A stretch of 38,591 nucleotides of DNA, taken from NCBI GenBank assembly GCA_031262035.1, contig JAISIL010000178.1:1-38591 (forward strand), read 5' to 3'. Below the pieces are notes generated by a model. It worked only from the letters and a program-made list of their open reading frames with translations. It had not been told where the DNA came from and did no database searches. Positions 4,481-38,591 of the stretch are shown here, piece by piece. This DNA comes from Spirochaetaceae bacterium. Its GTDB lineage: Bacteria > Spirochaetota > Spirochaetia > Treponematales > Breznakiellaceae. The translations under genes were made by a program, and so were the position numbers. Numbering within the stretch: position 1 is the first letter of the stretch; each line of letters begins with the position of its first letter.

Positions 4481-4491
4481 GGAATGTATTG

Positions 4492-7400
4492 ATGAAAAAG
4501 TTGCTTTCCGGAACGCTATGCTTGTTGACTCTGGCTTTTATATGCATCTTGTGGAGTTGTAACCCGCTTTTGACTCCTCTTCCCCAGTCCGGGGAAGAGG
4601 ACCGGCCCGGATATTCCGGGCAAGGCGGCATACCTACAGGCATAGTGTATTTTCCGGAAGGCAGCGATACAGGGACACTGTCCCTCACGGTGGTCGAGCC
4701 TGTCGAGACCACCCGCTCTGTGGTTTCGACAGGCTCAACCACCGGGGGGCGTGCACTTGTCGGCGCCGGAGCAGACGATATTAAATCCGGCGACGGGCTG
4801 CGCACGCTCTTTCAATTGATTGCCATAGATATGGCAGAGAAAACAAAAATATGGGACTTCGACCAGGTGGAATTTTCCACCGGCCAGAGTTCCTGCGTCC
4901 TTAAAATGACCGTGCAGAAAAACCACAACTACCTGATACTGGTGCTTTCCGGCCACAAGGGAATGGCAGCAGAGGGAAACACCCTTCTGGCCTCGGGCTA
5001 CACGATGCAGACCATGATACCGGGGAAGGTGGTAACAATACAGATGACTCCGGTGATTGTGGACGCAAAGGTGGTCTACGGCGACCCTGGCACCGGCGGC
5101 ATTGTTGAAGCTCCGGCGGGCCAGACATCGGTGGTGCAAACATCGAGCAGCGCATGGACAGCACAATTCCGTGTGGGCAGCAGAACCGAGACCATTGGTG
5201 GCACAGAAAAAGTATCAGGCGACGGGCTTGAGGCTCTGCGCTTTGTGGAACATGCCCTTGCCAATAGTGGCGCAAGCGAATGGTGGGGCGATGGGCCCTT
5301 TACCGCAGTCAGTAGTTCCGTGGCCTTTACGGGCAGGGTAAATGGCGGGGCAACAAGTGTCATTACCGCAGTTGACAACGGCAGTGACCCATTCACCGCC
5401 GACACAAGCGACGGCGTCCACCTTTCCGCTGCAATCGGGGAGCCGATTGCAGACCTCGTGCTTTCAGATATTGATACAAACACAATATATTCTTTTGACG
5501 GCTCGGTGCAGCTCAACATCGGCTACCGCCCCTTCGGCAAGAGTGCTGCATCCTGGTCAGACTTCACCGACTTCCAGACCCCGCTCGCCTCTGCAAGCGA
5601 CAGCGACATACCATTGTGGGTGATTCGCAACGGGCTGAACGACAGCGAGCAGACAACGGGCACCGGTTTTGACGGCTTCGACGGCAGCGACACAAACGGC
5701 GGGGTGCCGGTGAGTTATGAAACACCACCCGGCTTCACTGTCCGAGGCAAAACCGTCATCTACAATGAGCCTCAAGCCTACCGCCTGTGGACAAACATGT
5801 ATGTGCAGGAGAATTTACTGGCCCATTTTGACGCTATAAACAATACGGGAAGCGGACACACAACTAACTTGAGTGATGGCTGGCAGGATTTGGTCGGCAC
5901 ATACTTTGGAAATGGGGGGAAAGCAATTCTGGGCGCGGATGAAAACCGGATAGCAATTCCGGGTGCAGATGGTATCGTATGGGGTAATACCTATTTGGAT
6001 ATTCAAAAAGTACAGGCATCGGTTAAATATCCTTTAATTTGGGGAAGTAGAGCTGGTGTATTTGATACAACAAAAACAATCGAATTGGGTAACACAAAAT
6101 CTGGAAACAGGCTAGTTTGGTTTGGCATGGCCTATCAATTTTTTGACACAGAATTAGAGGGAGCCTTAAACTATTGGTCGGGTGCTTATGGTGGTACTGA
6201 TCTACCATCTGGATATATTGCTGAACCCGGTAAATTCCTAACGAGGTCGCTCAGTGTGGTCAAAGATTTTTGGAATGACCTATATATAAACGGCTCTGAT
6301 AAGTTCACATCACCCAAATCCTTTCTTGATCCAATATCCTCGTATCAACAGACCTATTATTATTCCTATCATGATCCATACGGGACCTCAAAGCCTTCTA
6401 AACTCTCCTGTTTCAGGCTTTATGATGGGCAATTAAGCGCCGAGCAAAGACAGCGAAACGCCTTTCTGGATAACTACCGTTTCAACAATCCCGACGGCAC
6501 CAAACCTGCTCCCACCATATCGCTGTATCAAAACGATATAGTAGTAGCAAGCGAACAGAACCTTGCCATAGTTGACGCCGGAAATGAAACCACGCTGAGT
6601 TTTACCACCAATTCCCTCGTTGCCGGAGATACATACGAAGTCAAAGTCATGAACGGCGGCACAGTGATAAAGAGCCTGGGGACTTTCACCGTGCCGGCCA
6701 GCCCGGGGGATAATGACCCCACCCTGATTGTGGGAACATCCTGGCCGGTGCGGGACTTTGCATATACCGGCAGGGCGCAGGAATGGATTGTGCCGAAGAC
6801 GGGTAACTACAAGCTGGAAGTCTGGGGGGCCCAGGGGGGCGATGACGGCAGCGGCTACGGCGGCCTGGGTGGATATTCACAGGGCATTATCGCACTGATT
6901 GCTGGTGATAGATTGGACATATTTATAGGAGAAAATCACGATACTAAGGGAGGTGGCTCATTTAATGGCGGCGGTATTGGGTGGAGTGAAAATCCTATCG
7001 GCGGTGGATACAACGGCGGAGGTGCCACAGACATCAGGTGGCCCACACCTTACACCATCAACGGCAACCCTGCCAGTGATTCAAGAATAATCGTGGCCGG
7101 TGGTGGCGGAGGGTATGGTGGCAACAACCGTAACGGAGGTTACGGTGGAGGCTTGACCGGAGGCATTGGTGAACAAGGTGCACGCCAGGCTGGTGGTGGC
7201 ACACAGATCACAGGAGGCGCAGCCGGAGGAGTTCCAACTCCTAGTGGTGAGATTCCGGTTGTTGCAACCGGTGGCAATGCGGGTATCGGCGGCAATGGCG
7301 GAGCGAATAATGGTGCCGGCGGCGGTGGCGGCTGGTTTGGCGGCGGCGGCAATGCGGATAATCCCTTCGATGTAGGCAGCGCAGCCGGCGGCTCAGGCTA

Positions 7401-8532
7401 TGTGAGCGCCCTCCTGAGCGATGCGGAAATGATAGCCGGTAACAGCGACCGCTACACCTTCCCCAACAATGTCTCAAGCTACTACGCCACAACAGCAATC
7501 GACACGGCCACAGACTACAGCTTCACTGCCGGCAGCGCCACCCCCACTATGCCCGATTGGCACGACCCCACAGGCGCCGCCAAGGTCATCGGCAACGAAG
7601 GCCACGGCTACGCGCGCATCACCTGGGTGGGGCCGTCCTGGCCGGTGCGGGACTTTGCATATACCGGCAGAGCGCAGGAATGGATAGTGCCGAAGACGGG
7701 CAAATATAAGCTGGAAGTCTGGGGGGCGCAGGGGGGCGGCAATACCGCTGCCGCATATCTACCCGGAGGCCCTGGCGGCTATTCCCGGGGCACGGTAAGT
7801 CTGAATCAGGGAGAGAGACTCTATGTGTATGTGGGTCAGTTTGGCGGGAATACCCTCTCTACATCCGGTGGATTCAATGGCGGAGGAGACAGTAAGACAC
7901 ATGCTTATCCCGGCGGTGGAGGAACGGATATAAGGCTGGTGCAAACCGACACTTACACTGCAGCAAAGAGACTCATAGTTGCCGGTGGTGGAGGCGGGGG
8001 CAGCCATTTTGGCACAGTTTCCGGAACTTCACCTTATGGATACGGAGGAGGGACAGAAGGAGGAAGCGGTGGTTCGACCTTTTATCAGTTAAGCATAACT
8101 ATGACACAAGCTACAGGCGGAACCCAAGACTCCGGGGGTGAGGGGTCAATAGCTTCAGATAATATGTATGGCACCGGCGGCGCCGGCAGCTTCGGGCTTG
8201 GCGGAAACGGTGATAATATCAATCATGAGCCCGAAACCAGTAATATCTTTGGTGGCGGCGGCGGTGGCGGCTGGTATGGCGGCGGCGGCGGCTCAGCCGG
8301 AAATTACATTGTAGCAGGCGGCGGCGGAGGTTCGGGCTATGTGTTCACTTCGACAAGCAAGGCAAACTATCCGGCAGGCGCCGCTATTCCTGCCGACAGA
8401 TACTTCCTTACCGACCCCGCCCTGCTATCCGGCAACGAACAAATCCCCGACCCCCACGACCCCACCGGCACCACCGAGGTCCCCGGCAACACCGGCCACG
8501 GGTATGCGCGGATCAGATGGGTGGGGCCATGA
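4492..8532 (+). CDS. Giant lipoprotein, paralogue 2, with LamG-like and two ALK-type glycine-rich domains
   Basis: The 1346-aa product starts at the ATG with AAGGA 8 nt upstream rather than the TTG before it. The signal ends in LWSC (Cys23). Residues 60-90 contain a palindromic-repeat-encoded insert (VVEPVETT, then VVSTGSTTGG). Paralogue blocks follow: LFQLIAID, KIWDFDQ, LGYRPFGKSAASW-like, PLWVIRNGL. Residues of about 430-660 have the look of a LamG/concanavalin-like domain (ENLLAHFDAINN, then a region ending FRLYDGQLSAEQRQRN). From about 749 and 1048 come two glycine-rich domains, each starting WPVRDFAYTGRAQEWIVPKT, with KLEVWGAQGG, GGYS, a GGFNGGG-like loop, GGGGTDIR and LIVAGGGGG. That order matches the ALK/LTK glycine-rich domain family. 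The protein is probably surface-exposed. It sits in an operon with the upstream lipoproteins, and its 3' end converges with the PIN toxin gene. Confidence 0.8.
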   Translation: MKKLLSGTLCLLTLAFICILWSCNPLLTPLPQSGEEDRPGYSGQGGIPTGIVYFPEGSDTGTLSLTVVEPVETTRSVVSTGSTTGGRALVGAGADDIKSGDGLRTLFQLIAIDMAEKTKIWDFDQVEFSTGQSSCVLKMTVQKNHNYLILVLSGHKGMAAEGNTLLASGYTMQTMIPGKVVTIQMTPVIVDAKVVYGDPGTGGIVEAPAGQTSVVQTSSSAWTAQFRVGSRTETIGGTEKVSGDGLEALRFVEHALANSGASEWWGDGPFTAVSSSVAFTGRVNGGATSVITAVDNGSDPFTADTSDGVHLSAAIGEPIADLVLSDIDTNTIYSFDGSVQLNIGYRPFGKSAASWSDFTDFQTPLASASDSDIPLWVIRNGLNDSEQTTGTGFDGFDGSDTNGGVPVSYETPPGFTVRGKTVIYNEPQAYRLWTNMYVQENLLAHFDAINNTGSGHTTNLSDGWQDLVGTYFGNGGKAILGADENRIAIPGADGIVWGNTYLDIQKVQASVKYPLIWGSRAGVFDTTKTIELGNTKSGNRLVWFGMAYQFFDTELEGALNYWSGAYGGTDLPSGYIAEPGKFLTRSLSVVKDFWNDLYINGSDKFTSPKSFLDPISSYQQTYYYSYHDPYGTSKPSKLSCFRLYDGQLSAEQRQRNAFLDNYRFNNPDGTKPAPTISLYQNDIVVASEQNLAIVDAGNETTLSFTTNSLVAGDTYEVKVMNGGTVIKSLGTFTVPASPGDNDPTLIVGTSWPVRDFAYTGRAQEWIVPKTGNYKLEVWGAQGGDDGSGYGGLGGYSQGIIALIAGDRLDIFIGENHDTKGGGSFNGGGIGWSENPIGGGYNGGGATDIRWPTPYTINGNPASDSRIIVAGGGGGYGGNNRNGGYGGGLTGGIGEQGARQAGGGTQITGGAAGGVPTPSGEIPVVATGGNAGIGGNGGANNGAGGGGGWFGGGGNADNPFDVGSAAGGSGYVSALLSDAEMIAGNSDRYTFPNNVSSYYATTAIDTATDYSFTAGSATPTMPDWHDPTGAAKVIGNEGHGYARITWVGPSWPVRDFAYTGRAQEWIVPKTGKYKLEVWGAQGGGNTAAAYLPGGPGGYSRGTVSLNQGERLYVYVGQFGGNTLSTSGGFNGGGDSKTHAYPGGGGTDIRLVQTDTYTAAKRLIVAGGGGGGSHFGTVSGTSPYGYGGGTEGGSGGSTFYQLSITMTQATGGTQDSGGEGSIASDNMYGTGGAGSFGLGGNGDNINHEPETSNIFGGGGGGGWYGGGGGSAGNYIVAGGGGGSGYVFTSTSKANYPAGAAIPADRYFLTDPALLSGNEQIPDPHDPTGTTEVPGNTGHGYARIRWVGP
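4690..4742 (+). repeat. In-frame palindromic repeat pair (GTCGAGCCTGTCGAGAC family) inside lipoprotein gene
   Basis: Two 23-nt hairpins, 4690-4712 and 4720-4742, each have six-base arms (GTGGTC/GACCAC and GTGGTT/AACCAC) around a TCGACAGGCTC-type core. They are near-perfect inverted copies of each other with a 7-nt spacer, so the pair can form one longer hairpin. They are translated as VVEPVETT and VVSTGSTT. Related copies occur at 9552-9658, 13542-13564 and 34504-34547. Confidence 0.85.
6739..7737 (+). repeat. Direct DNA repeats of about 102 nt starting each glycine-rich domain
   Basis: Positions 6739-6840 and 7636-7737 are about 94% identical over 102 nt (six differences counted by eye). 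They encode the conserved entry strand of the two glycine-rich domains (WPVRDFAYTGRAQEWIVPKT onward). Sequence between them diverges much more, which fits recent duplication or gene conversion of the domain entry, and offers a site for domain loss or gain by recombination. Confidence 0.85.
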
Positions 8533-9291: not shown

Positions 9292-9320
9292 AGTATAGCA
9301 TATCCCACCGGGTGTGTCAA
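9292..9320 (-). promoter_or_regulatory. Promoter of the PIN toxin-antitoxin operon
   Basis: On the minus strand TTGACA (9315-9320) is separated by 17 nt from TATACT (9292-9297). The predicted start is near 9285, giving a leader of about 12 nt that carries AGGAG. It overlaps the leader of the plus-strand lipoprotein gene starting at 9333, so the two transcripts diverge from almost the same spot. Confidence 0.7.
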
Positions 9321-9332
9321 GGGGCGGGTTTT

Positions 9333-12300
9333 ATGAAAAAAATTGTTCGTGGGGCATTGTGCCTTTTGTCTTTGGGTATGGTTTTTGTCCTTTACAGTTG
9401 TAATCCATTGATACTATCGCCGGTTAATGGAGATACTGAACCGGATGCTGTAGATATTACAGATGCTACAGACAGTGCAGATGCAGCAGGCAATACCGGT
9501 AACGGCGTGGTGAGCTTCCCCGAAGGCAGCGACAGGGGAACACTCTCCTTCGTGGTCTCGACAAATGTGGTCTCGACAAGCTCGACCACCGGTGGGCGCT
9601 CGCAGACCAGCACCGGAAGGCGCTCGGCCATCTCGGTGGTCGAGCCTGTCGAGACCACTATCAACAGAGCGCTGGTTGGCGCCGGGGTTGGGGACATACG
9701 CTCGGGCACGAATGTCCGCAATTTCTTTCAACTTATCGCTATCGATTTTGAGGACACCGGCAAGATATGGGACTTTGACGAGAAGTATCTTGGCAGTGAG
9801 CGAAGCGCCATCCTGAAAATGACTGTGCTGAAAAACCACGATTACCTGATACTGATGTTAAGCGGGCATATTTATGATTACGATGCCTACCAGGCTTGCA
9901 CAGAGAACCCCACCTTGCTCGCCTCGGGCTACGCAAGCAAAACCGTGATACCGGGCGATATCGTAACAATACAGATGACGCCGATCATCGTGGACACATC
10001 GTTCTATTCGGCGCTGAAAGATGCCGATTCTCCCGGGATGGGCACGGTTGATGCGACGACAGGCGGCAGGGCGATCCTCGATCCACTGTATAGCGACTGG
10101 ATAGCCCGTTTCCGCATTGGAGCCGGCCTGGAAAATGGCACTGTTGTAGGCGACGGCCTTAAAACCCTGCGCTTTGCAGAGTATGCCCTGGATAACTCAG
10201 GCTCGAGCGAATACTGGGGCAGCGGGACACTCAGCACCGTTAGCGACAGCGACATCACCTGGGCGAAATATACGGGGACTACGACAGGAAGCACATCAAT
10301 CGACACGATTTCCGGCACAGTGAGCGCGGACGGCACTGCGGTAATTGATTTGGCGGGCAAGTTGGAGGAAAGCGATGGCGGCACTGTTCAGTTCAATCTG
10401 GGCTACCGGCCTTTCGGCAAGGACTCCGCCGCCTGGGCAGACTATGCGGACTTCCAGACTGTGCCGGCCACTGCGCCTACAAGCGACGCCGATGTTCCCC
10501 TTTGGATAATCCGGAACGGGCTGACTGACGATGCGCAAGACAGATTCACTGATTTTGCCGATATAGCAGCCCCAGGCAACGGCGATGGCAGCGTGCTGGT
10601 GCAGTATGGGATTCACTACCTCGATCTGGCAGATGATACTCCTTTTGACAGCAAGGGTATTTCCAAGGGATTATGGGAATATAGCGGGGCCGATGGAACA
10701 GACGGGGAAGGCATCTACAGCATTAAAAGCGATATCCATATCAGAGTTATCAACAGCACGGTAAGCCGTCGCATCGTGATAAACAATGACCAGACGGCCA
10801 ACCTGCTCTTGGACAACGCCAGCATCGACCTGGGCGGAACCACCGTGGCAGGTTCCCCGATAAGCCTGGGCGCAGGGTCGTACCTCACCCTGAACCTGGC
10901 AAGCGGCACCACCAACACGATGACTGCGGCTTCGGGGGAGCATCTATGGTCTGCCGGTATACAGTGTACTCAAGGCACATCGCTTACCATTAACAGTTCA
11001 GATGCAACAGGTGTTCTTTATGCCAATGGGGGCAGCAGCACAGACGTTTTGGATAACAATGGCGGGGCCGGTATAGGCGGCTCGGGGACCAGCCGCAATG
11101 CGGGTTCTGTAAGCGGCACTATCAACATCAAGGGCGGCACGGTAAGGGCTGCAGGCGGCCATACCGGCGCGGGTATCGGCGGCGCAAAGGCTAGTAACGG
11201 GACAATAAACATTACAGGCGGTGTAGTGTATGCCACATACGTAAACGGCAGTGGAGGCGGTGCAGGCATAGGCGGTGGAAACGGCGGCGGAGGCGGCATC
11301 ATCAATATCGGCGGCACAGCGCTGATTAAGGAAGCAAGAGGCGACGGCCACGGCGCAGGCATAGGCGGCGGATATACACAAGCAGGCGGCAACATCACCA
11401 TCAACGGCGATGCGAAGATTGAACTGGCGCAGGGCGGTGGCGCTGGCGCTGCGGGCATTGGCGGCGGGCATAACGGCGGCGGCGGCGGCACCATTATCAT
11501 CGGCGGCAATGCGGTGGTTGATCTGGCACAGGGTGGTGGCACAGGCGGCGCGGGCATTGGCGGCGGGCATCCGAGTGGCGCCACGGGTGCTATTACTATA
11601 GGCGGCTCGGCTGTTATCACGGCAGCCAGAGGCGGCGCAAGCAGCGCGGGTATCGGCAATAGCTATGGCGGCGGGGGCGGCTCAATAAGCATTGAAGACT
11701 CGGCAAGTATAACGCTGGCACTGGGCGGCGATGGTGGAGCGGGTATCGGCGCAGGTGGTGAAGCCACCAGTCCTTCTATTAGCATTGACACCTCAGGCAG
11801 CGTGAAGGCCCAGGGCCAGGGCGGCTATGGAAGCTCCGGCATAGGCGGCGCAAGCTGTGCCTATGCCGCTGACATAAACATCATACGCGGCACGGTGACC
11901 GCTACAGCCAGTGGAGAAGACGGAGTGGGCATCGGCGGCGGCGAACGCTCGCCCGGCACCGTTACCATTTCAGGCGGCACGGTAACCGCCACCGGATCGG
12001 GAAGAGGTGCAGGGATAGGCGGGGGCGGCGGCGTTCCATTCGGTGGCACCGGTCCCCTCGGAGCGACTTGCCCGGTAGCCATCTCAGGCGGCACCGTGTA
12101 TGCCACAGGCGGCGCATCAGGCGGCGCGGGCATCGGCCAGAATGGCAGCATCACCTGGGACGCCTCCACGGTCACCATCACCGGAACGGCGGTGGTCTAC
12201 GCCAAGGGGCCGGACGGCGGTGCAGCTGCCATAGGCGGCGGGCTTAACAGCAAGACCGGCACCATCACCATCGGCACGGCGGGCGGCACGGACAACCCCA

Positions 12301-13502
12301 AGGTGGTGGCGATAACGGGCAGTTCCAGCTATAACGGCATAGGAAGCGACAGCAGCGTTGACGACGGCGCTTCGAGCATCACCATCAACAGTGGCCTGAT
12401 TATCTCGAACGGCAAGATCGGCAATAGCAGTCTCGTAAACACCGGCACGGTGAACATCACAGGTGGTATGCAGATTGTGTATGATATTGGTGCGTCAGGC
12501 AGTACCTACACCAGCACACATATAACGCACCCCGACGCCACGGAGACGAAAACCACGCTCACCACCGGCAACGCGGCAGTAGCCCCCGGCACCTTCCCCG
12601 CAGGCGTGGTAACCCTGGACGGCAACCTGAACGGCGTAATCCAGCCGCCCCTCGCCCAGGCCGACATGCCCACACACTGGACCCTCCGCAACCCCGGCGT
12701 CACCATAGCGTCCACCAGCGGCGATGGAAATGCCGTCGTGTCCTTCGTGCTAAACGGCACAAACCACGATGTGGTGTATACTTTTACCAGTGTGAACAAC
12801 CAGACCGGCACCTGGAGCTTCAACAGCAGCAAGGCGATGAGCGGCGTGCAGGCGTTGATTGTAGGCGGCGGTGGTGGAGGCGGAGGTGGAGGTGGAGGTG
12901 GAGGTGGAGGTGTAGGCGGCGGCTCAGGCGGAGCCGGAGGCTACATATATGATGCAGGTGTGAGCCTTGGCACTGCAACCTATACCGTGCAGGTGGGTGC
13001 GGGCGGCACAGGCGGTATCCAATCATGGAATACTGGTATAGTTTCGGGAAGCAACGGTGATCCTTCAAGCTTCTCCGCATACTCCGCGACTATTGCGGCA
13101 TTGGGTGGCGGCTGCGGCGGCAATGCAGATTCAGATACTTACTGTAACGGAAGCGATGGCGGCTCAGGGGGCGGTGCAGGCGCTAACACTAGCTACTATA
13201 GACAAACGCCCGGCCTTTCCACACAGGCTGTCACCGGCGCAGGCTTGGGGCATGATGGCGTAGGTGAGCGGGGCGGAGGCGCAGGGGAGGCTGGCGCAGG
13301 CATCAGTTGCAACATAAGCGGCAGTGCCGTTACCTATGCCGCAGGCGGGCTGTTTGACCTTACCGCAGCCGCTGCCAATGGCAACACCGGATTGTCAGCA
13401 GCCCCGCATACGGGCAATGGCGGTGGCGGTGGCGGCGTCTGGTATGGCGGCGCAGGCGGCTCCGGCATCGTCGTCATCCGCCTGCCGGGGAGCGGGCTGT
13501 AG
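9333..13502 (+). CDS. Giant lipoprotein, paralogue 3, with beta-helix GAGIGGG repeats and C-terminal glycine-rich domain
   Basis: The ATG at 9333 has AAGGGG 8 nt upstream; the GTG at 9312 is in frame but less likely. The signal ends LYSC (Cys23) in the 1389-aa product. An N-terminal region of about 430 residues is paralogous to the two upstream lipoproteins (FFQLIAIDF, KIWDFDEK, ILKMTVLKNHDYLILMLSG, LGYRPFGKDSAAWADY, PLWIIRNGL). It holds palindromic-repeat inserts (VVSTSSTTGG, VVEPVETT). Residues of about 470-1060 are 20 or so repeats of the form GAGIGGG-x-INIxGG-x-VxA, read here as a right-handed beta-helix. After a linker, from about 1170 to the end comes VQALIVGGGGGGG, several GGG loops and GSGIVVIRLPG, the usual close of bacterial glycine-rich domains. 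It is likely a surface adhesin-like protein; the ligand is unknown. Confidence 0.8.
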   Translation: MKKIVRGALCLLSLGMVFVLYSCNPLILSPVNGDTEPDAVDITDATDSADAAGNTGNGVVSFPEGSDRGTLSFVVSTNVVSTSSTTGGRSQTSTGRRSAISVVEPVETTINRALVGAGVGDIRSGTNVRNFFQLIAIDFEDTGKIWDFDEKYLGSERSAILKMTVLKNHDYLILMLSGHIYDYDAYQACTENPTLLASGYASKTVIPGDIVTIQMTPIIVDTSFYSALKDADSPGMGTVDATTGGRAILDPLYSDWIARFRIGAGLENGTVVGDGLKTLRFAEYALDNSGSSEYWGSGTLSTVSDSDITWAKYTGTTTGSTSIDTISGTVSADGTAVIDLAGKLEESDGGTVQFNLGYRPFGKDSAAWADYADFQTVPATAPTSDADVPLWIIRNGLTDDAQDRFTDFADIAAPGNGDGSVLVQYGIHYLDLADDTPFDSKGISKGLWEYSGADGTDGEGIYSIKSDIHIRVINSTVSRRIVINNDQTANLLLDNASIDLGGTTVAGSPISLGAGSYLTLNLASGTTNTMTAASGEHLWSAGIQCTQGTSLTINSSDATGVLYANGGSSTDVLDNNGGAGIGGSGTSRNAGSVSGTINIKGGTVRAAGGHTGAGIGGAKASNGTINITGGVVYATYVNGSGGGAGIGGGNGGGGGIINIGGTALIKEARGDGHGAGIGGGYTQAGGNITINGDAKIELAQGGGAGAAGIGGGHNGGGGGTIIIGGNAVVDLAQGGGTGGAGIGGGHPSGATGAITIGGSAVITAARGGASSAGIGNSYGGGGGSISIEDSASITLALGGDGGAGIGAGGEATSPSISIDTSGSVKAQGQGGYGSSGIGGASCAYAADINIIRGTVTATASGEDGVGIGGGERSPGTVTISGGTVTATGSGRGAGIGGGGGVPFGGTGPLGATCPVAISGGTVYATGGASGGAGIGQNGSITWDASTVTITGTAVVYAKGPDGGAAAIGGGLNSKTGTITIGTAGGTDNPKVVAITGSSSYNGIGSDSSVDDGASSITINSGLIISNGKIGNSSLVNTGTVNITGGMQIVYDIGASGSTYTSTHITHPDATETKTTLTTGNAAVAPGTFPAGVVTLDGNLNGVIQPPLAQADMPTHWTLRNPGVTIASTSGDGNAVVSFVLNGTNHDVVYTFTSVNNQTGTWSFNSSKAMSGVQALIVGGGGGGGGGGGGGGGGVGGGSGGAGGYIYDAGVSLGTATYTVQVGAGGTGGIQSWNTGIVSGSNGDPSSFSAYSATIAALGGGCGGNADSDTYCNGSDGGSGGGAGANTSYYRQTPGLSTQAVTGAGLGHDGVGERGGGAGEAGAGISCNISGSAVTYAAGGLFDLTAAAANGNTGLSAAPHTGNGGGGGGVWYGGAGGSGIVVIRLPGSGL
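9552..9658 (+). repeat. In-frame palindromic repeat cluster in lipoprotein paralogue 3
   Basis: A partial copy (9552-9564), a full 23-nt copy (9567-9589) and an inverted full copy (9636-9658) of the same hairpin family as 4690-4742. All are translated, as VVSTN, VVSTSSTT and VVEPVETT, without breaking the frame. They sit at the same protein position as in paralogue 2, between the GTLS block and RALVGAG. Confidence 0.85.
12858..12924 (+). repeat. GGTGGA-type microsatellite encoding a poly-glycine run
   Basis: Tandem GGN codons, mostly repeats of the hexamer GGAGGT, encode 16 consecutive glycines within VGGG-x-VGGGSGG. Because the unit is a multiple of three, slippage would change run length without changing frame. 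Confidence 0.75.
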
Positions 13503-13506
13503 GAAT

Positions 13507-13606
13507 AGATTAACAGCGAACCACGCGAACAAAACAGACAGGTGGTCTCGACAGGCTCGACCACCGGAGGGGCCCGTTCGTGTGGTTCGTGTGGTTCGTT
13601 GTTAAT
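13507..13606. repeat. Composite palindromic element: outer GAACCACGCGAAC hairpin with inner TCGACAGGCTC hairpin
   Basis: The outer arms are related: AACAGCGAACCACGCGAAC on the left and GTTCGTGTGGTTCG-TTGTTAA on the right. Inside is a complete 23-nt hairpin (13542-13564) of the family found in frame in the lipoproteins. The element starts just after the stop of the giant lipoprotein and could act as a 3'-end hairpin. Confidence 0.75.
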
Positions 13607-18806: not shown

Positions 18807-18908
18807 ACAACCACGAATAGCACGAATCGGCTTCGCCGACACGAATAATCTATGATTTGTATTAAATATTCGTGTCGGCGAAGCCGATTCGTGTATATTC
18901 GTGGTTGT
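18807..18908. repeat. Long hairpin element, family CCACGAAT/CGGCTTCGCCG, copy 1
   Basis: Arms of about 40 nt start ACAACCACGAATAGCACGAA and are mirrored at the right end. Each arm holds a mini-palindrome CGGCTTCGCCG, and the loop is AATCTATGATTTGTATTAAA. The predicted fold is a cruciform with two side hairpins. The 30 nt starting at the right end (about GGTTGT-AAATTTTTAAATGATTTT) recur inverted at the left of copy 3. The element lies between the tsaD stop and the promoter of the lipoprotein operon. The rest of the 18698-18930 gap holds only that promoter. Confidence 0.85.
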
Positions 18909-18930: not shown

Positions 18931-20037
18931 CTAATGCCTGTGTTTATACCCCGCCACCCTTGCCGATGCGGTAAGGCTGAGCGGGGAGGTTTCGCCCCTT
19001 TGCAGATACTGATACGCAATGCCTGCAACCATGGCCCCATTGTCGCCGCAGAGGGGAAGGGGCGGGAAGATGCATCGTATATCGCTGTGCCTGGCCAGCT
19101 CGGAACGCAGATAGGAATTGGCCGCCACGCCGCCGCCTGCAACAATAGTCCGCAAACCCGTGTCTTCTACGGCACGCAATAAACTGCGAATTAATATATC
19201 GATAGCTGTTTTTTGAAAAGAGGCTGCAAGGTTGGCAAGGTCGGTACTGTTAAGCGCTGCCCTTCCCGCGACCCCTCCCCCAACCCTTCCCGCAAGGGGA
19301 GGGGTGTTGTTGTAAGCAGGGGGGGGGTTGTAAGCATTAGTAAACTTCCAGGGTTCCCTTGTTACGGCTGTCTTTAGGCCGGAGTATGATACGTCGTAGC
19401 GGCTGGCTCGGATTTCGGGCAGGGGGAAATGGTAGGCCTTTGCGTCTCCTTTCTGTGCCAGTTTGTCGATTACGAGGCCGCCGGGGTAACCAATTTCGTA
19501 GAACTTTGCCACTTTATCAAAGGCTTCACCAACGGCGTCATCGACTGTGGTGCCAAGGACGGTAATGTCATCAAAATCATCAACACGGGCAATAATGCTG
19601 TGTCCGCCTGATACGAGGAGGCCGAGAAATGGGTATTCCGGCGGGGGCGAAGCAGTCTCAGCGTTTGCAGGTTCCAGTTTGGAGGCATACAGGTGGGCCA
19701 GCATATGATTTACTGCAATAAAGGGGAGCTTTCGCGCCCAGGCAAAGCCCTTGGCGAAACAGAGGCCCACCAGGAGGGAACCGAGCAAACCGGGTTCAGC
19801 GCTTGCCGCCACTGCCTGTATGTCCTCTACGGAGAGGGCAGCGTCGCTGAGGGCCTTGCTGACCACCGCATTAATCCATTCGATGTGTTTACGGCTTGCA
19901 ATTTCGGGAACAACACCATTGTAGGCGGCATGGAAAGGAATCTGTGTTGCCACCACATTGGATAAAATCTTTTTTCCGTCTTCAACGATTGCTGCCGAAC
20001 ATTCATCGCAAGAGCTTTCTATACCTAAAACGAACAT
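18931..20037 (-). CDS. tsaD: tRNA N6-threonylcarbamoyladenosine transferase TsaD
   Basis: The 368-aa protein is the ASKHA-fold catalytic subunit that transfers threonylcarbamoyl to A37 of ANN-decoding tRNAs. It starts GIESSCDECSAAIVEDG. The metal-binding His pair is at 111 and 115 (NHMLAHLYA). The family blocks are all present: EPGLLGSLLVG, LVSGGHS, TVDDAVGEAFDKVAK, SYSGLKTAV, NLAASFQKTAIDIL, VAGGGVAANSYLR and CGDNGAMVAGIAY. Between GLKTAV and NLAASFQ there is an odd insert of about 25 residues (NPPPAYNNTPPLAGRVGGG) encoded by a palindromic repeat. No ribosome-binding site precedes the ATG, and TATAAT ends 6 nt before it, so the mRNA may be leaderless. The gene is divergent from a YciO-like gene of the related YrdC fold family. 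Confidence 0.95.
   Translation of the reverse strand: MFVLGIESSCDECSAAIVEDGKKILSNVVATQIPFHAAYNGVVPEIASRKHIEWINAVVSKALSDAALSVEDIQAVAASAEPGLLGSLLVGLCFAKGFAWARKLPFIAVNHMLAHLYASKLEPANAETASPPPEYPFLGLLVSGGHSIIARVDDFDDITVLGTTVDDAVGEAFDKVAKFYEIGYPGGLVIDKLAQKGDAKAYHFPLPEIRASRYDVSYSGLKTAVTREPWKFTNAYNPPPAYNNTPPLAGRVGGGVAGRAALNSTDLANLAASFQKTAIDILIRSLLRAVEDTGLRTIVAGGGVAANSYLRSELARHSDIRCIFPPLPLCGDNGAMVAGIAYQYLQRGETSPLSLTASARVAGYKHRH
19262..19336 (-). repeat. In-frame palindromic repeat inside tsaD
   Basis: The perfect arms ACCCCTCCCC (19271-19280) and GGGGAGGGGT (19296-19305) flank a short loop. Reading through gives TPPLAGRVGGG in TsaD, a peptide not expected in the family. A neighbouring C-tract (19320-19328) encodes PPP. 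The frame is preserved. The outer limits are estimated from where family homology stops and resumes. Confidence 0.7.
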
Positions 20038-35906: not shown

Positions 35907-35958
35907 TAATTTAACGGCCATTAAGTTAATATATCTTAAATTAATGGCCGTTAAATTA
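35907..35958. promoter_or_regulatory. 52-nt perfect palindrome in the ATPase leader
   Basis: Perfect 18-bp arms TAATTTAACGGCCATTAA / TTAATGGCCGTTAAATTA (35907-35924 and 35941-35958) flank a 16-nt AT-rich loop. It lies after the predicted transcription start and 16 nt before the ATG, so it could be a protein operator or an mRNA hairpin near the ribosome-binding site. Confidence 0.8.
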
Positions 35959-36036: not shown

Positions 36037-36912
36037 TTACTCTACATTCCGTAGTTGTTCACGAATGTTTTCCAAGGCGTCTTTTAGGGAGACTACGGCG
36101 CGGCTGGTGTCCATATCGGGGGTTTTTGAGCCGATGGTGTTGACTTCCCGGTTTATTTCCTGGCAGAGGAAGTCGAGTTTTTTACCGGGGCTGGGGTTCC
36201 TCAGCGTTTCGGCACGGAATTCATCCAGGTGGGATTGCAGCCGGGAAAGTTCTTCGGCAATGCTGTATTTGACCAGCAGCACGGCAAGTTCCTGATAGAT
36301 AATCAGTTCTTCTGCACTTGTTGCAGGGCCGGTAATACCTTTTTTCATTTCGTTGTATCGTTGAAGGAAGTGTTCTTTTGTTTCAAAGTCGATAAGCGAC
36401 TGCCTTTTTTTAATGTCTTCAACCTGCGATTCAATTTCGCCGAGATGCTCGAGAATATTTGCCTCGGTATGCTTGCCTTCGCGCTGCCGTTCTTCGGCAA
36501 AGGCTTCCAGTGTATTGTTTAAAAGAGCACGCATCTCCAAAATTAAATCTTCGGAAACTCTTGCGTCAACATTTCTTTCAACAACCCCATCAAGGTTTGA
36601 TAGGGTTACAAGGTCCGGCTTTTCGCTAATACCTGCTTCTTTTGCAATATCGAGCCAGGCCTTCCAGGCATTTTTATTGAGGGTCAAAAGAACCGGAGTA
36701 TCTTTTTGCTTTAATTTTACATTAACATCGACCTTGCCCCTTTTGCAGTAGCGAACAACAGCAGTGCGCACATTGTTTTCGAATGCATTTAAAAGAGGCG
36801 GCAAAAATACAGAAATATCCAAATACCTGCTATTGTAACTTTTTACTTCGATAGCAGCATCATAGGTATCTGTGTGTTTTTCCCTAAAAGCATAGCCTGT
36901 CATACTGGTCAT
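36037..36912 (-). CDS. YicC/YloC-family endoribonuclease
   Basis: The 291-aa protein starts MTSMTGYAF, the family signature, followed by VEVKSYNSRYLDI-like sequence. The C-terminal half holds LDFLCQEINREVNTIGSKTP and VSLKDALENIREQLRNVE, also hallmark YicC blocks. E. coli YicC is reported to act on RNA as an endoribonuclease. The length is normal. The ATG overlaps the murC stop by 4 nt, so it is translated with murC from the same transcript. The stop is about 150 nt from the ATPase start, with the palindrome and promoter between. Confidence 0.92.
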   Translation of the reverse strand: MTSMTGYAFREKHTDTYDAAIEVKSYNSRYLDISVFLPPLLNAFENNVRTAVVRYCKRGKVDVNVKLKQKDTPVLLTLNKNAWKAWLDIAKEAGISEKPDLVTLSNLDGVVERNVDARVSEDLILEMRALLNNTLEAFAEERQREGKHTEANILEHLGEIESQVEDIKKRQSLIDFETKEHFLQRYNEMKKGITGPATSAEELIIYQELAVLLVKYSIAEELSRLQSHLDEFRAETLRNPSPGKKLDFLCQEINREVNTIGSKTPDMDTSRAVVSLKDALENIREQLRNVE

Positions 36913-38420
36913 AATGAACCTCCTTGTTGTAATTTTTGTATAAGCGCTTTACCCAACTGCCAATTATCCCCTGCGCCCATGGTAATGAATACATCTCCTG
37001 TGTGTAGTGTTTGTAACAAGGGCTGAAGTGCTTCATGGTAATCATCATAGTAGTAAATCTGTTCTTTTAAACCGGGACGGGCAAGCTTCTTTGCCTGCTC
37101 ATATAAGGTCCTGCCTGAAATCGCTGTATCATCATGCCGTGCCGATGCATAAATCTTATGGAGAAAAAGCACATCGGCAGAATCAAAACACTGTGCAAAA
37201 TCATCAAGCAATGCCGCAGTGCGCGAAGAAGTGTGCGACATAAACGATACAATAATACGCCGCCCCGGATAAAAAGCCCGATAGCCCGCAAGCGTCGTCC
37301 TTATAGCTGTCGGATGATGCCCATAATCATCAATAAATAAAATACCCTTATACTCACCCAATAACTCTGAGCGCCGTTTACTGCCACGAAAATCTTCCAG
37401 AGCTTGTTGGATAAGTGCAATTTGTGGGGGCGAATAGTTATTCGCCTTTACAAATTGTTCGCGTGGTTGGCGTGGTTCGCGGTTTATCAACTCTGATGCC
37501 AGCGCCAGCGCCGCCGTAGCATTCAAGGCCGTGTGCCTCCCCGGAATACACATCTTCAGTTGGCAATCCCCAAAGGCCGCTACAGTCCAGACTATTCGTT
37601 CATTCTCTACCTTAAACGAAGTGATTTTATAATCGCCTTCAGCGGTCCAGCCATAGGGCAGTGTTTGTATGTCGGGCCTATCTTTCAGGGCCTTATGCAC
37701 GGTGTCTACAGCACCTGCGTCATCGGCACAGTAAATAAGGCTGCCGTTTTTTGGCAGTTTATGTATGTATTCGATAAAAGCCTTTTGTATATCTGCAAAA
37801 CCAGGGTAGTAATCCTGATGATCACTTTCCACGCTGGTAAGAATAATGCGGCTGGGATGGAAGTCAAGAAAATGCCGCCGGTATTCGCAGGTTTCTGCAA
37901 CAAAATACTTTGGATTATCACCTATAGAAAGAGTGCTGCGTGGAGATGCAATCATCTCCCCCCCCTTTGGCCAATTTACTGCTGAGCCCACAAGAATGCG
38001 TGCCGGCACCTGCAATGCCTGCAAGACAGTGCCGCAAAGGGCTGTGGTAGTAGTTTTACCATGCACGCCGCAGATGCCGGTAGAATCATAACGGCCGGAG
38101 AAGTCGCCTAAGGCTTCCGGGTAGAGCTTGAGTGCTATACCTTGCCGCCTTGCCTCTGCAAGCTCGGGATTCGTGTCCGGGCTGTAGGCGGCAGAATAAA
38201 TCACCTCGTCGAGCGGGCCATTTTTATCAATTTCTTCTATTATATTAGCCGCATTAAAGCCTTCATGGTAGGGAATCTTTAGTTCATGCAAAATATCATC
38301 AGTGTAAAACTTTTCGCTTGTATCCGCGCCGCCAAGCAGAGCCCCCTCGTGTTGCAAGAGCTCGGCCAGAGCAGCCATTCCCGTGCCCTTAATGCCCACC
38401 ATGTAGATGTGTTTATTCAT
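36909..38420 (-). CDS. murC: UDP-N-acetylmuramate--L-alanine ligase MurC
   Basis: The 503-aa cytosolic ligase adds L-Ala to UDP-MurNAc in peptidoglycan synthesis. The N-terminal MVGIKGTGMAALAELL is the Rossmann start, and the ATP loop is GVHGKTTTT (118-126). The middle shows AETCEYRRHFLDF, then SVESDHQDYY. The C-terminal part has FIDDYGHHPTAIRTTLAGYR, SFMSHTSSRTAALL and TMGAGDNWQLG. Length is slightly long because about 21 residues near 312-333 (NREPRQPREQFVKANNYSPP) are encoded by a palindromic repeat. The -10 box TATAAT lies 6 nt before the ATG, and AGGAA overlaps that space, so the mRNA should be leaderless or nearly so. It is cotranscribed with yicC. Confidence 0.95.
   Translation of the reverse strand: MNKHIYMVGIKGTGMAALAELLQHEGALLGGADTSEKFYTDDILHELKIPYHEGFNAANIIEEIDKNGPLDEVIYSAAYSPDTNPELAEARRQGIALKLYPEALGDFSGRYDSTGICGVHGKTTTTALCGTVLQALQVPARILVGSAVNWPKGGEMIASPRSTLSIGDNPKYFVAETCEYRRHFLDFHPSRIILTSVESDHQDYYPGFADIQKAFIEYIHKLPKNGSLIYCADDAGAVDTVHKALKDRPDIQTLPYGWTAEGDYKITSFKVENERIVWTVAAFGDCQLKMCIPGRHTALNATAALALASELINREPRQPREQFVKANNYSPPQIALIQQALEDFRGSKRRSELLGEYKGILFIDDYGHHPTAIRTTLAGYRAFYPGRRIIVSFMSHTSSRTAALLDDFAQCFDSADVLFLHKIYASARHDDTAISGRTLYEQAKKLARPGLKEQIYYYDDYHEALQPLLQTLHTGDVFITMGAGDNWQLGKALIQKLQQGGSL
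37418..37485. repeat. In-frame palindromic repeat inside murC
   Basis: A 40-nt near-perfect palindrome (37418-37457) with arms CAATTTGT / ACAAATTG around GGCGAATAG / TATTCGCC-type inner arms, followed by a GCGTGGTTGGCGTGGTTCGCG segment related to the outer arms at 13507. It is translated as REPRQPREQFVKANNYSPP between ASELIN and QIALIQQAL. The frame is preserved. Confidence 0.75.
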
Positions 38421-38479: not shown

Positions 38480-38591
38480 AAAATCATTTAAAAATTTACA
38501 ACCACGAATGGACACAAATCGGCTTCGCCGACACGAATAATCTATGATTTGTATTTAAAATTCGTGTCCGCGAAGCGGTTTCGTGTTATTC
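38480..38591. repeat. Long hairpin element, family CCACGAAT, copy 3, cut by window end
   Basis: A left flank AAAATCATTTAAAAATTTAC is followed by the arm ACCACGAATGGACACAAAT, mini-palindrome CGGCTTCGCCG, loop AATCTATGATTTGTATT and the mini-palindrome CCGCGAAGCGG. The right arm runs off the window. The loop has the same orientation as in copy 1, but the shared flank is on the opposite side. Confidence 0.8.

Follow-up and report, generated by a model that had tools for sequence, protein, structure and literature searches.

Repeats that lie in frame in bacterial protein genes have so far been associated mostly with Rickettsia, Wolbachia, and certain REP-rich bacteria. The Rickettsia palindromic elements (RPE; Ogata et al. 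2000, 2002) have been reviewed together with other MITEs. In these accounts, RPE are described as palindromic repeats of about 105 to 150 bp that lie in frame in genes; several families are found in unrelated, often conserved genes, and copies are both genic and intergenic (PMC2229807, PMC10969869). An RPE-bearing Gmk is described in the same accounts as an active enzyme with an altered affinity. The REPs tagged with GTAG or CGTC are palindromes of 20 to 40 bp that occur singly or as inverted pairs, are intragenic in several species and phyla, and, when intragenic, are often located in DNA replication and repair genes (PMC3733652). In other bacterial MITEs (ERIC, Correia/NEMIS, and RUP), inverted terminal arms enclose a short spacer, and the elements contain open frames fused with genes of the host (PMC2229807). 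The literature searched, which covered few subscription papers, contained no report of repeats of this kind from treponemes or from spirochaetes of the termite gut.

Here we describe a repeat-derived segment in the murC gene of a treponeme. The gene lies in the window, which is the whole stretch of 38,591 nucleotides that was analyzed. The segment is very likely to consist of two lineage-specific, dispersed mini-repeats, E joined to P, that are in frame and are kept as a tolerated loop, with E, P, and a third family, Q, spread genome-wide.

Two repeats joined within murC

The original prediction was that a 40-nt palindrome plus a tail encodes residues of about 312 to 333 of MurC. Both parts were found, and both were in the murC frame. 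The features of the locus were as follows:

36909..38420, minus strand: murC, UDP-N-acetylmuramate--L-alanine ligase, 503 aa; the host gene, assigned by Pfam, PDB sequence matches, and fold
37457..37487, plus strand: repeat E copy in murC, GTTCGCGTGGTTGGCGTGGTTCGCGGTTTAT, read on the minus strand as codons 312-322, INREPRQPREQ (the predicted tail)
37424..37451, no strand assigned: palindromic P core, GTGGGGGCGAATAGTTATTCGCCTTTAC, consensus GTAGGGGCGRATAATTATYCGCCCCTAC, read on the minus strand as codons 324-333, VKANNYSPPQ
37418..37457, no strand assigned: extended 40-nt near-palindrome around P, equal to codons 322-335

The MurC of the window contained all three Mur ligase Pfam domains. Codons 312-335 corresponded to two adjacent dispersed-repeat copies, E and P, in the open murC frame, and the repeat-derived segment of the protein was INREPRQPREQFVKANNYSPPQ. 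The predicted palindrome and tail were thus present, but the idea that they form a single element was not retained because they belonged to two separate families that met at a single base, 37457. The near-palindrome had 19-nt arms that were 84% complementary and a 2-nt spacer. Whereas the actual sequence gave 7 centre hits, no palindromes of this quality were found in 20 simulated windows with the same dinucleotide make-up; the DNA fold of the P plus E stretch had a z value of -5.9. An Rfam search of the window yielded no RNA family. When up to 3 mismatches were allowed, the full 40-nt palindrome still had no second copy in the genome; the P family became visible only when the degenerate 28-nt core was used. 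The murC copy of P showed 0 mismatches to this degenerate consensus, and its peptide, VKANNYSPP, matched VGANNYSPL, the usual P reading.

The tail had also been predicted to resemble the outer arms of a composite element at 13507. This resemblance was borne out: TTCGTGTGGTTCGTGTGGTTC had 0 mismatches at 13577-13597 in the composite and 3 mismatches at 37458-37478 in the murC tail, and shuffled sequences gave 0 matches. In-frame elements were found in other genes of the window as well, in agreement with the prediction. Specifically, Q pairs were located in two large, glycine-rich ORFs (4489-8532 and 9312-13502), and TsaD (18934-20037, minus strand) had an insertion of about 30 residues (AYNPPPAYNNTPPLAGRVGGGVAG...) between residues 225 and 268 that was absent from PDB homologues. 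The TsaD stretch looks like a candidate for a fourth repeat family. The remaining repeat features of the window were as follows:

4689..4743, no strand assigned: in-frame Q pair in ORF 4489-8532 (VVEPVETT...VVSTGSTT)
9566..9659, no strand assigned: in-frame Q pair in ORF 9312-13502 (VVSTSSTT...VVEPVETT)
13509..13530, minus strand: left E arm of the 13507 composite, shortened
13541..13565, plus strand: Q inside the 13507 composite, GGTGGTCTCGACAGGCTCGACCACC
13576..13606, plus strand: right E arm of the 13507 composite, variant

Two other kinds of palindrome were noted in the window. A dyad with 27-nt arms, CACGAATCGGCTTCGCCGACACGAAT, was present in two copies (18821-18893 and 38512-38586); the second was at the contig end and perhaps caused the assembly break. 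An AT-rich palindrome with 26-nt arms and no spacer was located at 35907-35958, between an ATPase ORF and yicC.

Dispersal of E, P, and Q in the genome

The assembly that was searched comprised 3,068,633 bases in 215 contigs. The E core pattern had 105 genome matches at up to 3 mismatches and the reversed-sequence control had 0; P was found at about 31 sites (reversed control, none), and Q (GGTGGTYTCGACARGCTCRACCACC) had 144 hits. Many of the copies were in Pfam-recognised core genes, and the proposal that a genome-wide process rather than chance was at work was upheld by these counts.

Among ORFs of 190 aa or longer, 46 distinct ones contained at least one copy of E, and Pfam domains were detected in most of the 40 E-bearing ORFs tested. 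The hosts identified by Pfam included DNA polymerase III alpha (DnaE), Mfd, CarB, SMC, RecG, and aconitase, as well as PheS, IspH, QueA, PyrF, and NFACT. Hosts of P included GMP synthase, UvrC, an RNA pseudouridine synthase, and a GH3 enzyme, and hosts of Q included DNA polymerase I, class I tRNA synthetases, and isocitrate/isopropylmalate dehydrogenase. In the DNA polymerase I locus (L347), the Q peptide VVEPVETT was followed, a few residues on, by the catalytic QVHDEL motif. A ParB ORF (L156, 659-1570) had a C-terminal tail that was an E peptide, LTANHANHANLP.

The E consensus was (A)TTAACCGCGAACCACGCSAACCACGCGAAC, a unit of 30 or 31 nt with a 30-nt core (10 codons) and an internal period of 9 nt. 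Four of its six frames had no stops, and forms that were shorter or longer by one unit preserved the frame. By construction, E would therefore be well suited to life inside genes.

All three families appeared to be restricted to this lineage. When 199 other genomes of the family, all from other genera, were searched for E at up to 2 mismatches, 197 had none, one had 1 match, and one had 8 variant matches; this last genome (G189, loci L335-L343) belonged to another genus of the same family and carried the E variant GTGTGGTTCGTGTGGTTCGCGG. No exact match to E was found in viral contigs, and neither P nor Q was found in 885 kb of relatives' loci, which were centred on a few genes.

How the repeats spread was considered next to the arrangement and flanks of E, for which stretches around nearly all copies were taken (111 E copies). 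We infer that lineage-specific mini-repeats, E, P, and Q at least, would have spread through the treponeme genome by mobilisation. A narrower claim about mechanism, compatible with this explanation, is that an enzyme encoded in this genome still mobilises the repeats, which would then be of the transposon type (MITE or REP/REPIN). In keeping with this claim, 38 of the 111 E copies were in inverted pairs around a short spacer, which resemble MITEs and REP dimers, and the family was lineage-specific. The flanks of E were also sharply non-random in composition. On the ATTAACC strand, the outer flank (-5 to -1) had 12 C in 505 bases (p = 4e-41) and the inner flank had 5 C in 202 bases (p = 5e-17), against a background of 0.232, although bases of the same flank are not fully independent of each other; near C-free flanks were common to genic and intergenic copies. 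However, no excess of identical flanks indicative of a target-site duplication was seen among 68 solo E copies at any boundary tried, the assembly contained no Y1_Tnp gene, and the transposase search, which was for the Y1 family alone, identified no autonomous copy. Because of the missing duplication and Y1 transposase, transposition itself can only be inferred, and we regard movement by a resident enzyme as quite possible but short of probable. More doubtful, in our opinion, is the idea that these are lineage-specific, possibly still active, frame-neutral micro-inserts that remodel loops across the proteome and enter by a mechanism that gives no target duplication, favours sites free of C on one strand, and puts other palindromes only on the inner side of E. 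With regard to that placement, 17 of 110 E copies had P or Q within 70 nt on their inner side, and none had either on the outer side (p = 8e-6). Because P and Q adjoined the inner side of E repeatedly, the E-P junction in murC represents a recurring kind of arrangement.

Reading frames and host proteins

Codon phase was strongly biased. Among in-ORF copies of Q, 31 of 35 gave VVEPVETT or VVSTGSTT (p = 1.8e-11), and 43 of 54 copies of E were in two of its four open frames, LTANHANHAN and INREPRQPRE (p = 7e-6); the ORFs were called mechanically, and the P and Q copies counted in ORFs were mostly the best-matching ones. On the same basis, 12 of 18 distinct P copies were in ORFs of at least 190 aa, all in one frame, V(G/K/R)A(N/D)NY(S/P)P. 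P has a single open frame, so its location in ORFs is enough to account for the constant reading. Q is readable in all six frames, yet one phase dominated, which indicates that the protein product was selected, and this bias was the strongest support for a genome-wide process. Codon phase should not matter to an insertion process, and the bias therefore points to translation of the copies and removal of harmful readings. Genic copies would survive if the frame is kept, if the site is a surface loop, and if the phase gives a soft, hydrophilic peptide. The tolerated readings would be the two E and two Q peptides named above and VGANNYSPL for P.

An alternative view, with which the phase bias would agree, is that the repeats are kept because they serve a purpose in the proteins or the mRNAs, such as acting as linkers or RNA hairpins. 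As palindromes, P and Q are able to fold into hairpins (the fold was computed for P), and a hydrophobic E reading found near N-termini, FAWLAWFAVN, supplies apparent signal-peptide cores in two ORFs. We consider usefulness an unlikely reason for retention, however, because the hosts were unrelated, relatives manage without the repeats, and removal of harmful readings explains the phase bias equally well. The two FAWLAWFAVN copies were at L173:1515-1545 and L185:1562-1592, where the peptide was the hydrophobic core of the apparent signal peptide; one of the two ORFs was a TolC-like outer membrane efflux protein.

The length contributed by the repeats differed among hosts. In DnaE, the GLTANDANHANGIND peptide added 15 aa within a stretch that was of equal length and otherwise gap-poor in 29 relatives, and CarB had about 13 extra residues. 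PDB homologues were gapped at the repeat in PyrF (+12), RecG, and PolA (+7). In GuaA, the repeat peptide was length-neutral versus homologues, and in IspH it fell in a segment that varies in length and brought hardly any net gain, if any; for these two proteins, one has to assume that residues were replaced or were deleted later. The view that the inserts are plain additions of fixed length was rejected, as the net gain ranged from about 0 (IspH and GuaA) to 15 aa (DnaE). The IspH model had a mean pLDDT of 92.9, and the E peptide (152-161) was partly in a lower-confidence helix (149-159). A second low-confidence, Asn/Thr-rich stretch of IspH (L184, residues 58-70, ATNNTNSTNNENRN) was absent from the PDB homologue and is possibly another insert.

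For MurC, sequence searches placed the protein among those of Treponema MAGs, and the host is taken to be a treponeme, probably one that lives in an insect gut. The MurC of the nearest relative was about 10 residues shorter. No empty site from a close relative backs the insertion, as the nearest genome compared was of another genus (61% MurC identity). Loop length varied from 27 to 52 residues across 72 relatives, and the loop in the window was 38 residues. Since this loop is naturally variable, the case for a net insertion rests on the repeat sequence, not on length. It could be argued that the segment is an ordinary fast-evolving loop that is repeat-like by chance, and the wide variation in length fits this argument. 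A repeat-free MurC with a loop of the same length and similar residues would have spoken for it; 7 of the 72 relatives had loops as long as or longer than that of the window, but the residues were unrelated, and the repeats were absent from the MurC of all 72. Moreover, the DNA matched two dispersed families (E and P, with 105 and about 31 copies) whose reversed controls gave none, and the same peptide recurred in unrelated proteins. A chance origin is therefore very improbable. That the hosts, murC included, are pseudogenes in decay that carry junk DNA is just as hard to credit: insertions were present in very many genes, but the frames were intact across whole proteins, essential ones included, the phase bias requires translation, and the columns invariant across 73 MurC sequences (the window's included) were retained.

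The explanation that E and P are tolerated inserts was consistent with the MurC structure predicted from the 73 sequences. The AlphaFold2 model had a mean pLDDT of 91.7, and residues 319-324 were the sole segment below 50. Its best PDB match was the solved MurC 1p3d (Z 43.5, rmsd 2.1, 450 residues aligned). In the model, the insert was a loop between helices 295-314 and 331-343, i.e., between the ATPase and C-terminal domains. MurC would thus carry the extra peptide in a disordered loop, where it is probably tolerated, and the enzyme probably stays active.

Comparison with described repeat systems

As in the available descriptions of RPE, the repeats E, P, and Q were in frame in many unrelated protein genes. 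This likeness was drawn from published descriptions, and the host here was a spirochaete with a 3 Mb genome. In contrast to RPE of about 105 to 150 bp, the E core was 30 nt and was not a strong palindrome, and P was 28 nt. With respect to the stem-loop feature of RPE, P was palindromic with a DNA fold z value of -8.0, whereas solo E folded weakly (z values of -0.9 to -2.1) and paired E can form a stem.

The repeats were also reminiscent of intragenic REPs, as DnaE, PolA, Mfd, UvrC, and RecG were among the hosts. P begins with GTAG and ends with CTAC; this GTAG was inside a perfect palindrome, within the stem and on both strands, whereas the REP tag is at one end. Most P copies examined were intragenic, E had neither REP tag, and Q had no GTAG tag. 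The RAYT domain Y1_Tnp (PF01797) had no match in the assembly and was found in 5 of 14 control genomes; mobilisation of the repeats by a RAYT was rejected on this ground. The inverted E copies have terminal inverted repeats like those of MITEs, but E was usually solo (73 copies), was far shorter, and lacked a target-site duplication. Because their size differed from that of RPE, RAYT was not found, and E had no duplication, we did not place these repeats as members of the RPE or REP class.

What is new here is that a treponeme has many core genes in which members of at least three unrelated families lie in frame, and that the bias in codon phase points to selection acting on the peptide after translation. 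Since the same short peptides have been inserted naturally, independently, and many times into enzymes whose structures are known, insert tolerance becomes directly testable, and the repeats also allow the spread of small repeats to be tested in a genome with no recognised transposase for them. By analogy, the repeats in MurC appear to work like RPE and intragenic REPs.
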